From the NCBI GenBank assembly GCA_002787155.1, contig PCVY01000058.1, positions 5,837 to 57,945 of the forward strand: a stretch of DNA of 52,109 bases, read 5' to 3'. The notes under the pieces were generated by a model. That model ran no database searches. It was not told the origin of the DNA and was given only the letters and a program-made list of their open reading frames with translations. The position numbers were made by a program, and so were the translations under genes. The stretch comes from Candidatus Abzuiibacterium crystallinum. GTDB taxonomy: Bacteria > Omnitrophota > Omnitrophia > Omnitrophales > Abzuiibacteriaceae. Shown here piece by piece: positions 1,060-4,179 of the stretch (position 1 is the stretch's first letter; every line of letters begins with the position of its first letter).

Positions 1060-1789
1060 GATCCGACTTTCGTGTCCGCACACTTAACACAATTTTCTCT
1101 TTTTTGAGCAGCTGCTTTAGCTTTGGGTTTGAGAAAAGCGAAAGCTCAACAGCTCTCCCTTGATTGAATGAACTGATTTTCCGCAAATATCCGTCACAAT
1201 AACCCGGATGACACATGAGTTCACTGGCGCCGTCCGGCAAGTTTTTGAGAATGGTTGTGAGACTTCTCAGAGTCCAATGGCGGTCATATCCAATACTGCC
1301 AAAGAAATAATCGGTGGTTAATGTCTGAGGCCCTAAACCGCAGACGCGTCTCATCGGAATGGCATGCTGACGGCTAAGTTTTTGAACGATTGCAAAGATG
1401 CTTGGATCGGCATGAATATGGTGATGGGTGTCTAAGTGATCCGGCATTTTGCCAAACACTTCGAAAAAGCGATTCAGTTGTGCGCGATATTCCCCTGCAA
1501 TTTCTCTCAGGTTGGGCCGTTGATGAAAACGCTTGAATGAACCTGTTTGATCTACCAGGCTTTTCACTCGTTTGGTATGCTGAACAGGCTGACCGTAAGT
1601 CATATTGAGATGGAGGCCTTGGCCGAGATGTTTCCGTTTTCTAAGGCCTAAAAATTGCTCGCGGGACAGCGGTAAATTAATAAAAATACTTGTGCTGGAT
1701 ACGATGCCGCAGTCAAAACAGCGGAAAATACCTTTTGAAACACCCGGGGTTAAATTGAAATCATCCGCATTAACGAAAAGTACTTTCAT
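1034..1789 (-). CDS. YdjC/ChbG-family carbohydrate deacetylase
   Basis: The 251-residue product belongs to the YdjC (ChbG, HpnK-like) family of metal-dependent deacetylases acting on N-acetylated sugars. Visible family features are NADDF near the N-terminus (D9, D10), GLHLN with H60, the metal-binding stretch HLDTHHHIH (about residues 118-126) and ELMCHPGY near the C-terminus. The substrate cannot be told from sequence; a cell-envelope glycan or glycolipid is plausible given the nearby acpS and bactofilin genes. The ATG overlaps the acpS stop in an ATGA junction, so the two are translationally coupled. Confidence 0.88.
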   Translation of the reverse strand: MKVLFVNADDFNLTPGVSKGIFRCFDCGIVSSTSIFINLPLSREQFLGLRKRKHLGQGLHLNMTYGQPVQHTKRVKSLVDQTGSFKRFHQRPNLREIAGEYRAQLNRFFEVFGKMPDHLDTHHHIHADPSIFAIVQKLSRQHAIPMRRVCGLGPQTLTTDYFFGSIGYDRHWTLRSLTTILKNLPDGASELMCHPGYCDGYLRKISSFNQGRAVELSLFSNPKLKQLLKKEKIVLSVRTRKSDHEYFTHQR

Positions 1790-2166
1790 ACCGCCATCAT
1801 GACGGTCGCAATGGCAAAATCACGTTCATGCGCCATGGTCAATCGAAATTCGGCCTGTGCCGGCACGGCAAGCTGCTTCCGTGCGCGGGGCGAGAGAAAA
1901 AGGTAGGGTTTACCGTATTGACCCCGTTTGACCTCGATGGCACTAAAAGCATAGCGGCCGGGACCGCCGCCTTTGGCTTTAATCAATGCTTCTTTGGCTG
2001 CAAAGCGGGCGGCATAGTTTTCATATTTATTCCGCTTGGCTTCACAATAGATTTGCTCGTCCGTCGTAAACACACGATCCAAAAACCGTTGGCCTTGTCG
2101 TTCAATGGCCAACCTCATTCGGGAAACGCTGACGATATCGACACCCACCTCAAAGGGAATTGACAT
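1786..2166 (-). CDS. acpS: Holo-[acyl-carrier-protein] synthase
   Basis: AcpS moves the 4'-phosphopantetheine arm of coenzyme A onto acyl carrier protein, activating fatty-acid synthesis. The 126-residue length fits the family. The Mg-binding residues are D10 in VGVDIVSVSR and E59 in RFAAKEALIKAKG, and the C-terminal AEFRLTMAHERDFAIATV strand is present. It lies 3 bases after the membrane helix-turn-helix gene and overlaps the next gene by 4 bases, so it sits inside one operon. No acpP or fab genes are near. Confidence 0.95.
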   Translation of the reverse strand: MSIPFEVGVDIVSVSRMRLAIERQGQRFLDRVFTTDEQIYCEAKRNKYENYAARFAAKEALIKAKGGGPGRYAFSAIEVKRGQYGKPYLFLSPRARKQLAVPAQAEFRLTMAHERDFAIATVMMAV

Positions 2167-2169
2167 AAG

Positions 2170-2460
2170 CTATAACTGAAAAAAGAGGATAATAAACACC
2201 AGGAGACAGACTGACGTAATGACGTAAAAGCTGTAGAATTTCCAAAAATCCCGAAATCGCTCTAACTGAGAGCGGCCCAGTTCTTCCGGTGCGATAAACT
2301 TTTTACCGCTCTTGAGTGCCACCACTTCTTCTTTTTTGAAACGAATGTATGACCCGCCCACACGAAAAGCGGTTAGTTTGCCTCTTTTCATCAGTTTTTG
2401 AATGTCGGCAGGCGTTTTCCCAAGGTAATGCTGAACTTCTTCTTCTGTCAAAAAAGCCAC
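2170..2460 (-). CDS. Membrane-anchored excisionase-type helix-turn-helix protein
   Basis: The predicted 96-residue protein has two parts. Residues about 4-50 form a winged helix-turn-helix of the MerR/excisionase type (EEEVQHYLGKTPADIQKLMK, then GGSYIRFKKEEV). Residues about 75-95 are one hydrophobic segment ending at the C-terminus (FYVITSVCLLVFIILFF). This predicts a DNA-binding or adaptor domain in the cytoplasm held at the membrane by a C-terminal anchor. An upstream TTG at 2475 is open but lacks a ribosome site; GTG at 2460 has GAAGGG 7-8 bases before it, so I chose that. It follows a bactofilin that carries the same kind of HTH domain. Exact function unknown. Confidence 0.75.
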   Translation of the reverse strand: MAFLTEEEVQHYLGKTPADIQKLMKRGKLTAFRVGGSYIRFKKEEVVALKSGKKFIAPEELGRSQLERFRDFWKFYSFYVITSVCLLVFIILFFQL

Positions 2461-2560
2461 AATGGTACCCTTCAATTAAAAAAAATAATTTGTAAATAGA
2501 ATTTTGATATCGGGACTTCGAGTTGCAGTCAGTGACTTCCGCTGATGAACTTCGAACTAA

Positions 2561-3079
2561 TTATGACTTAACTTTTTCGTCCTGAACCCATTTATCAATC
2601 ACGGTACGGCTGAAACGCCATTCGCCTTTTTCCATCCGAGCCGGAATCTTTTTCTTCTCAGCCCATTCCTGTACTACCTTGGCTTCGAGTTCCAGGTACT
2701 GTGCAACTTCGCGCAAGGACAATGTTTCAGCGGTAGGACCGGTAATATTGGTCATGATCAACTGACCTTCGATAATAGACCCTTCCGCAACGCTGAGTTT
2801 GGGGGTTCTAATATTTCCTTGTATATAAGCCGGCGCAATCGCCGTTAAACTTTCAAAAGCAATAATATCACCTGTTACTTTGCCGGCAATAATTAAGCGG
2901 TCGCCTTGAATATCAGCTTTCACATTGGCATTTTCACCAATGGTCAGGTTGCCGCGCGTGTCCAATTTACCTTCAAAACTACCGTTAATTCTTAGATTAA
3001 CAGGGTCCTTAAAGGAAATGGTTCCCTGCATACTCGCATCAACATCTAAAATCTTCTCGTCGGCGTTTCGTTTGGCCAT
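2561..3079 (-). CDS. Bactofilin with C-terminal helix-turn-helix domain
   Basis: The 172-residue product has a bactofilin core at about residues 10-110, recognised by repeated beta-helix turns with GxI/GxV spacing (INGSFEGKL, TIGENANVKADIQGDRLIIAGKVTGDI, IQGNIRTPKLSVAEGSIIEGQL). Bactofilins polymerise into nucleotide-free filaments that scaffold envelope enzymes or DNA-segregation proteins. Residues about 119-168 form an excisionase/MerR-like HTH (SLREVAQYLELEAKVVQEWA, GEWRFSRTVIDKWV), unusual for the family. Start ATG is supported by a strong AAAGGAGG. A good promoter lies upstream. The downstream gene encodes a second, membrane-anchored HTH. Confidence 0.88.
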   Translation of the reverse strand: MAKRNADEKILDVDASMQGTISFKDPVNLRINGSFEGKLDTRGNLTIGENANVKADIQGDRLIIAGKVTGDIIAFESLTAIAPAYIQGNIRTPKLSVAEGSIIEGQLIMTNITGPTAETLSLREVAQYLELEAKVVQEWAEKKKIPARMEKGEWRFSRTVIDKWVQDEKVKS

Positions 3080-3120
3080 AGAAAGCCTCCTTTAATCCAA
3101 ATGGGTGGTAAAGCAGTTCT

Positions 3121-3149
3121 AAGTTATCACTGAAAAGAGAGGGTGTCAA
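3121..3149 (-). promoter_or_regulatory. Sigma-70-type promoter for the bactofilin operon
   Basis: On the minus strand TTGACA (3144-3149) and TAACTT (3121-3126) are separated by 17 bases. Transcription would start near 3114, leaving about 35 bases of leader that contain the AAAGGAGG ribosome site of the bactofilin gene. The -35 box lies just past the tsaD stop codon, so this splits tsaD from the bactofilin-HTH-acpS-ydjC-surE unit. Confidence 0.65.
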
Positions 3150-3162
3150 GAAAAGCGTATCG

Positions 3163-4179
3163 CTATTCAAAATCAAGACTGGGATTGGGTGTTAAATCAA
3201 GCCCGGAACGCATACCCAAGCGATAACGCTCATAACCCAGTTTCGCAATCATCCCCGCATTGTCTAAAGTGAGAGCAAGCGGCGGTATGAGTAATTTGAT
3301 ACCATGCAACTGGCAAGCCTTGCTTAATTCGTTCCGTAGGCGCGAGTTAGCGCTCACGCCTCCTCCGACAACGATTTGCTTTAACTTATTTTCCTGGCAG
3401 GCAAGAATCGCCTTCTTAATCACCCAATCGGTAACAGCTTGCTGAAAACTGGCGCATAAATCATAAAGTTTCCGGCCCTGCCAACGTACGCCGGGCCTGT
3501 AGCGGCCGTTCTTACCATGCACATGATGTAAAACTGCTGTCTTGATACCGCTAAAACTAAATTGATAACGTCCGGCAACTTTCGGTTGCGTGAACGTATA
3601 AGCCCGCGGGTTACCTTTTTGTGCCAACCGGTCAATCGCAGGACCGCCCGGATATCCCAAACCTAAAATCTTGGCTGTTTTGTCATAAGCTTCTCCGATG
3701 GCATCATCCACCGTGCAGCCAATTTCCTTAAAATGCCACCGCTTGATCTTAAGCAAACTCGTGTGACCGCCTGATACGACAACACCCAAATAAGAACCCT
3801 TGGGCGTGGGATTGTCGATAAAATTAGCCGCCACATGCGCTTCGAGATGATTCACCCCTACCAGCGGCTTTTCCAAAGCAAATGCCAACGATTTGGCAAA
3901 AGAAACACCCACTAAGAGTGAGCCAACCAGGCCGGGTCCTTTGGTCACGGCGATTAAATCGATCTGCCGCGCCTTGAGGCGCGCTTTTTTTAAGGCTTCT
4001 CGATAAACCACATGAATGGCTTCTAAACAATGGCGGGAAGCGATCTCGGGCACAACACCGCCGAATGGTTTGTGTTTCTTGAGACTGGAAGAAATAATGT
4101 TAGCACGTAAGTGCCGTCCATTTTCAAGGAGTGCACAGGAAGTTTCATCACAGCTGGTCTCAATACCTAAGGTGATCAT
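3163..4179 (-). CDS. tsaD: tRNA N6-adenosine threonylcarbamoyltransferase TsaD
   Basis: TsaD, with TsaB and TsaE, transfers the threonylcarbamoyl group to A37 of ANN-decoding tRNAs (t6A). The 338-residue protein has the ASKHA-fold signature: GIETSCDETSCALL at the N-terminus, metal-binding H111 and H115 in NHLEAHVAAN, GGGVSANSRLR, and D306 in TLDNAGMIA. Length is standard. The start overlaps the stop of the deacetylase gene by 4 bases (ATGA), indicating coupling. tsaB and tsaE are not in the window. Confidence 0.97.
   Translation of the reverse strand: MITLGIETSCDETSCALLENGRHLRANIISSSLKKHKPFGGVVPEIASRHCLEAIHVVYREALKKARLKARQIDLIAVTKGPGLVGSLLVGVSFAKSLAFALEKPLVGVNHLEAHVAANFIDNPTPKGSYLGVVVSGGHTSLLKIKRWHFKEIGCTVDDAIGEAYDKTAKILGLGYPGGPAIDRLAQKGNPRAYTFTQPKVAGRYQFSFSGIKTAVLHHVHGKNGRYRPGVRWQGRKLYDLCASFQQAVTDWVIKKAILACQENKLKQIVVGGGVSANSRLRNELSKACQLHGIKLLIPPLALTLDNAGMIAKLGYERYRLGMRSGLDLTPNPSLDFE

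Follow-up and report, generated by a model that had tools for sequence, protein, structure and literature searches.

A bactofilin–helix-turn-helix fusion and its adjacent tail-anchored helix-turn-helix gene in Candidatus Omnitrophota

The ties of bactofilins to the membrane and to client proteins are known in a few species only. The usual membrane-targeting peptide of bactofilins is an N-terminal, MFSKKKK-like one (PMC12448750); such a peptide is common among bactofilins, though not universal, and is not decisive for membership. Among DNA-binding helix-turn-helix (HTH) proteins, BldC reaches bases with Lys26 and Arg30 and phosphates with Thr27, Thr29 and Lys33, and makes further contacts with His46, Arg47 and Arg48 in its wing (PMC5859096). 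The R30A substitution essentially abolishes DNA binding by BldC, and RacA relies on the equivalent arginine (PMC5859096). HTH folds may also bind proteins, as the HTH of RodZ binds MreB and not DNA (PMC6946637), and CbpM, whose MerR fold no longer has the DNA-contacting residues, binds a J-domain (PMC4063869). Here we describe a bactofilin fused to an HTH domain, and the membrane-anchored HTH gene beside it, from a window of 52,109 nucleotides (the whole stretch of DNA that was analysed) of a member of Candidatus Omnitrophota, which NCBI taxonomy places in the PVC group. A literature search found no paper joining bactofilin to Omnitrophota, although most subscription journals were out of reach and absence is therefore unproven; the one Omnitrophica paper returned names bactofilin once.

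The two proteins and their operon

The fusion gene (2561..3079, minus strand) encodes 172 residues and is the sole bactofilin of the source genome. Pfam assigns residues 10–107 (2759..3052, minus strand) to Bactofilin (PF04519; E = 4.9e-22, 78.5 bits against a cut-off of 27.9) and residues 120–167 to HTH_17 (PF12728; E = 4.5e-10, 40.1 bits against a cut-off of 27). The AlphaFold2 model has a mean pLDDT of 86, with 85–97 across residues 10–107 (93–97 in the core), 86–90 in the HTH, and values below 50 in a short, disordered linker (residues 113–116). The core is modelled as a right-handed beta-helix, and Foldseek places it with Caulobacter BacA (2n3d) and the Thermus bactofilin (6rib) at a probability of 1.00 and target-normalised TM-scores of 0.74–0.76, with an E-value of only 4e-3; sequence searches match the same bactofilin structure entries. 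The C-terminal segment folds in the model as a winged HTH_17/MerR-like domain (residues 119–168; 2576..2725, minus strand). For this HTH and for that of the membrane protein, BldC, RacA and Xis are the closest solved folds. Over the core and the two HTHs, the Foldseek E-values are modest (best 4e-3 and 7e-3), but the probability is 1.00 and sequence searches concur. Thus, the arrangement proposed from the letters alone, a bactofilin core followed by an HTH in one protein, is borne out by Pfam and AlphaFold2 together, and Foldseek agrees that the C-terminal segment is an HTH. The sequence of the domain hints at a possible origin in HTH_17 proteins of mobile-element type.

The next gene (2170..2460, minus strand) encodes 96 residues from a GTG at 2460; a TTG at 2475 is possible, but the GTG is the more likely start, as AAGGG lies upstream of it and homologs begin there. 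An HTH_17 domain (residues 3–50; 2311..2454, minus strand; E about 1e-8) is followed by a C-terminal hydrophobic helix, and AlphaFold2 (mean pLDDT 78) models the HTH, a linker, and a helix of 31 residues (65–95) with pLDDT of 83–95 over most of its length. The same HTH type and the membrane helix that had been read from the sequence are thereby confirmed for the neighbouring gene. From the modelled helix and its hydropathy, the transmembrane part (2176..2229, minus strand) would be a tail anchor with ∼2 residues beyond it, and a hydropathy scan of the homologs gives a tail with a median of 2 and a maximum of 9 residues. At the membrane face lies a motif (residues 71–80; 2221..2250, minus strand) that reads DFWKFYSFYV here and DFFYFNDFYI as the phylum consensus, with conservation of D71 at 93%, F72 at 94%, F75 at 85%, N76 at 81%, F78 at 90% and Y79 at 100% in an alignment of 132 proteins. 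It is present in 168 of 191 membrane-HTH proteins, and is better conserved than the linker or the membrane core of the same protein. Such conservation, with an invariant Tyr79, implies that the motif probably makes a specific contact at or within the membrane.

Upstream of the pair, inspection reveals a possible promoter (3121..3149, minus strand) with a perfect TTGACA at 3149–3144 and, at a spacing of 17 nt, a weak −10 element, TAACTT, matching at 3 of 6 positions; this pair is absent from the list given by a consensus promoter scan. A scan for terminators between the two genes found none. The sequence-only reading held that one promoter drives both genes, which is plausible given the TTGACA and the uninterrupted interval, but is weakened by the poor −10 element and its omission from the scan. 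The tsaD gene (3163..4179, minus strand; context conserved at 75 loci) ends 83 nt upstream of the bactofilin gene, and an acpS-like gene (1786..2166, minus strand; 26 loci), probably on the same transcript, starts 3 nt past the membrane-HTH gene, so the operon may extend beyond the pair.

Distribution and linkage in Omnitrophota

We sampled 384 genomes of the phylum. The fusion profile matches at E ≤ 1e-6 in 358 of them, of which 40 are weak matches by inspection, mostly to the HTH only, and were left out; of the 384 species, 318 have the full-length fusion (E ≤ 1e-30), mostly as a single copy. A plain bactofilin search is positive in 319 of the 384 genomes, nearly all with one copy, so that the phylum has, in essence, no bactofilin other than the HTH fusion. 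The membrane-HTH profile matched (E ≤ 1e-6) in 318 of 318 fusion species, a count that includes a few weak matches (2e-7 in G376) that could be other HTH_17 proteins. Within the order of the source, both genes are found in 35 of 39 genomes and are adjacent on one strand in all 35. Phylum-wide, 195 loci were examined, chosen via either gene, and in 191 the pair is adjacent on the same strand with the bactofilin first and a gap of −32 to 339 nt (median 23). The four exceptions are a locus with a bactofilin partly masked by Ns (L050), two at contig ends (L292 and L180), and one from genome G279 (L192). In G279 (L192; also L325 and L308), the pair is split over contigs C12 and C18. Linkage of the two genes in related genomes is therefore far above chance, and Omnitrophota have, as their standard bactofilin locus, the fusion with its membrane-HTH partner, an architecture and linkage confirmed to be much more general than a reading of one locus could show. 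A short exact peptide scan of a contig collection returned one Omnitrophica locus, a plasmid search yielded bactofilins and HTHs separately with no fusion, and a search of viral contigs found no fusion or related match. The bactofilin HTH (2576–2725) shows 45% identity to HTH proteins on Klebsiella plasmids, and scores 2.9e-11 against a MAD1 defence HTH model, under that model's cut-off.

The common context is tsaD–(mgtC)–bactofilin–membrane HTH–larB or acpS, and the neighbour clusters that recur comprise tsaD, mgtC, a divergent polysaccharide deacetylase, larB/larC and acpS. No peptidase is recognised among these recurrent clusters, and a peptidoglycan-enzyme operon of the Hyphomonas kind is accordingly disfavoured. 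In much of the phylum the order is tsaD, an MgtC/SapB-like gene, bactofilin, membrane HTH, LarB and LarC (e.g. L323 and L324), genes with no obvious functional link.

The expectation that the membrane-HTH gene is always the neighbour holds in one direction, in that a bactofilin implies a membrane HTH, and breaks down in the other, in that the membrane HTH occurs without a bactofilin in at least two lineages. In family f20 (8 genomes; L309, L313, L314 and L317–L321) and in genera g41 and g207 of family f14 (5 genomes; L310–L312, L315 and L316), there is no bactofilin match, and the membrane HTH with its motif still lies at the tsaD locus, as tsaD–htm–polA or tsaD–mgtC–htm–larB (htm, membrane HTH). 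As other f14 genera carry both genes, the absence within f14 is most simply a loss. The f20 membrane HTH has His for Tyr in the wing and retains the juxtamembrane FNDFY motif. Since the membrane HTH survives without bactofilin in two lineages, it must have a role or partner besides bactofilin. In a further family, f46 (G151, G165, G193, G227, G243, G251, G268, G275, G323 and G373), there is neither a bactofilin nor a clear membrane-HTH homologue; the six f46 genomes checked have MreB-family matches, whereas five of them have no RodZ-type HTH_25 and the sixth has only a weak match.

Retention at the tsaD locus without bactofilin is what would be expected if the two genes had separate functions in an ancestral operon, the bactofilin HTH docking some other client, the membrane HTH serving another envelope or signalling role, and the linkage reflecting co-regulation and conserved gene order. 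The tsaD–mgtC–bactofilin–membrane HTH–larB order, conserved despite no obvious functional relation, is consistent with this, as is the outcome for the two HTHs of a coevolution analysis by mean-field DCA on a paired alignment (191 pairs, effective 148). Inter-protein couplings overall exceed both shuffled and clade-shuffled nulls, and the HTH–HTH block holds 15 of the top 50 couplings against 8.5 by area, but clade-shuffled pairings give 12.8 ± 3.1, such that the enrichment vanishes and no specific HTH–HTH signal is left. On the other hand, the pair stays adjacent in varied downstream contexts (larB, acpS, polA, greA-like and PilB-like), which is more than shared gene order alone predicts, and no bactofilin lacking a membrane-HTH match was found among the 318 fusion species. 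We consider separate functions possible, though on balance doubtful.

DNA-contact residues and the proposed module

We aligned 132 bactofilin HTHs and 132 membrane HTHs, together with a control set of 34 further HTH_17 domains taken from the order of the source. At the BldC Arg30 position (Glu138 in the fusion protein), the bactofilin HTH is acidic in 83% (Glu 64%, Asp 18%) and basic in 6%, and the membrane HTH is acidic in 43% and basic in 33%, whereas the controls are acidic in 0% and basic in 79%. The median charge of the recognition helix is −2 in both HTHs of the pair versus +3 in the controls, and the net charge of the domain is about −4 in the bactofilin HTH, +1 in the membrane HTH and +6 in the controls; these figures are charge statistics and do not amount to an assay, and most of the control domains belong to a few orthologous groups that score strongly against HTH_17. 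A basic Arg at the Arg30 position together with a basic recognition surface is thus found in neither HTH of the pair. The recognition helix of the membrane HTH is acidic and variable, and its wing carries a charge of +4 with an invariant Arg at the BldC Arg48 position (Arg40 here), complementary to the acidic bactofilin HTH. The hydrophobic core of the bactofilin HTH is kept (Leu129, Pro146 and Trp164 are invariant), which indicates that the surface has been altered and argues against decay. From these substitutions we infer that the bactofilin HTH no longer reads DNA.

With confidence that falls a little short of even, we favour a module in which both HTHs dock proteins, with the tail-anchored protein acting as a RodZ-like membrane adaptor that binds the bactofilin by protein contact. 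In its favour are the phylum-wide linkage, the substituted DNA-contact residues, the complementary charges and the RodZ and CbpM precedents; against it stand an HTH–HTH block no richer in couplings than clade-shuffled pairings, the lineages that keep the membrane HTH without a bactofilin, and, beyond the order of the source, the presence of RodZ and of a plausible membrane peptide on most of these bactofilins. The bactofilin core would polymerise beneath the inner membrane and display its HTH as a docking module along the filament, for which the tail-anchored HTH protein would be the membrane receptor or adaptor. This adaptor may contact the filament via the basic wing of its HTH and a membrane-embedded partner via the invariant juxtamembrane/transmembrane motif, acting, by analogy, as RodZ does for MreB with a cytoskeleton-binding HTH on a single-pass membrane protein. 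A narrower version, which we hold to be rather unlikely, has the HTH of each filament subunit and that of the tail-anchored protein, both derived from DNA-binding domains, bind each other as a RodZ-like link between filament and envelope machinery, perhaps in a BldC-like head-to-tail array. The membrane HTH retains the equivalents of the BldC interface residues Glu16 and Gly44; the bactofilin HTH, however, has Glu at the BldC Arg22 position, which would preclude the salt bridge of BldC, and such an array is speculation.

In the order of the source, none of 34 bactofilins has F, L, I, W or M at positions 2–4, versus 117 of 157 elsewhere, and a strong RodZ-type HTH_25 is absent in 8 of 8 tested genomes (G000 and seven others); MreB-family matches are present in 31 of 31 genomes tested. 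As this order has no clear RodZ and its bactofilin has no usual membrane peptide, the likeliest role of the membrane HTH there would be as the membrane anchor of bactofilin. Almost every other lineage in the sample has strong HTH_25 matches. Replacement of RodZ by the membrane HTH suits the order of the source only, since elsewhere the pair and RodZ occur together; in f46, both genes of the pair are absent and RodZ is mostly absent too, leaving at most a partial replacement.

In the sequence-only reading, the module would link a membrane filament either to DNA or to a partner protein. Phylum-wide linkage and the tail anchor uphold the membrane-filament part, whereas the acidic Arg30 position and the charges disfavour DNA as the cargo. 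A tether in which either or both HTHs bind DNA and tie the nucleoid to a membrane filament, in the manner of RacA–DivIVA or Myxococcus BacP–PadC–ParABS, would accord with the nearest solved folds being DNA-binding, with the basic wing of the membrane HTH and its invariant Arg, and with the capacity of bactofilins to organise chromosome segregation through adaptors (PMC5703909). We nevertheless judge it improbable in view of the predominantly acidic residue at the key base-contact position and negative net charge of the bactofilin HTH, and of the acidic recognition helix of the membrane HTH relative to same-order controls. A transcriptional module of a membrane-tethered regulator and a filament-sequestered one, suggested by HTH_17/MerR family membership, is very improbable as the DNA-reading helices are lost in both HTHs and almost no residues follow the membrane helix, leaving no sensor domain.

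Comparison with known systems

An almost wholly uncultured phylum thus has one fused form of bactofilin with a near-constant partner gene. Should protein docking be the role of the HTHs, an HTH would have become a coupler of cytoskeleton and membrane for a second time, independently of RodZ, and the labelling of such proteins as transcription regulators would call for caution. The fusion shares the bactofilin domain and beta-helix with canonical bactofilins (Caulobacter BacA, the Thermus bactofilin and H. pylori CcmA), but has a folded HTH in place of the disordered C-terminal tail, is single copy phylum-wide, and in the order of the source is missing the N-terminal membrane peptide. The membrane protein resembles RodZ, the MreB adaptor, in joining a small cytoplasmic HTH to a single transmembrane segment, and differs from it in matching HTH_17/MerR-like and not Xre-like HTH_25 (PF13413), in being a tail anchor without a periplasmic domain, and in that its gene adjoins that of a bactofilin and it is not known to act on MreB. 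Both HTHs share the fold of BldC, RacA and Xis, and the membrane HTH keeps the wing Arg, Glu16 and Gly44, whereas Lys26, Thr27 and Arg30 of the recognition helix are not kept and the bactofilin HTH is acidic at Arg30. CbpM is likewise a MerR-like HTH with replaced DNA-contact residues that binds protein (PMC4063869), but this soluble co-chaperone regulator forms a coiled-coil dimer and has no cytoskeletal link. In Myxococcus BacP–PadC–ParA, the C-terminal region of the bactofilin recruits an adaptor (PMC5703909); however, the BacP tail is disordered and PadC is ParB-like and not a tail-anchored HTH protein. Finally, Hyphomonas BacA is functionally paired with the single-pass membrane protein LmdC (PMC10945521), although LmdC is an M23 endopeptidase that is bound via its N-terminal cytoplasmic region.
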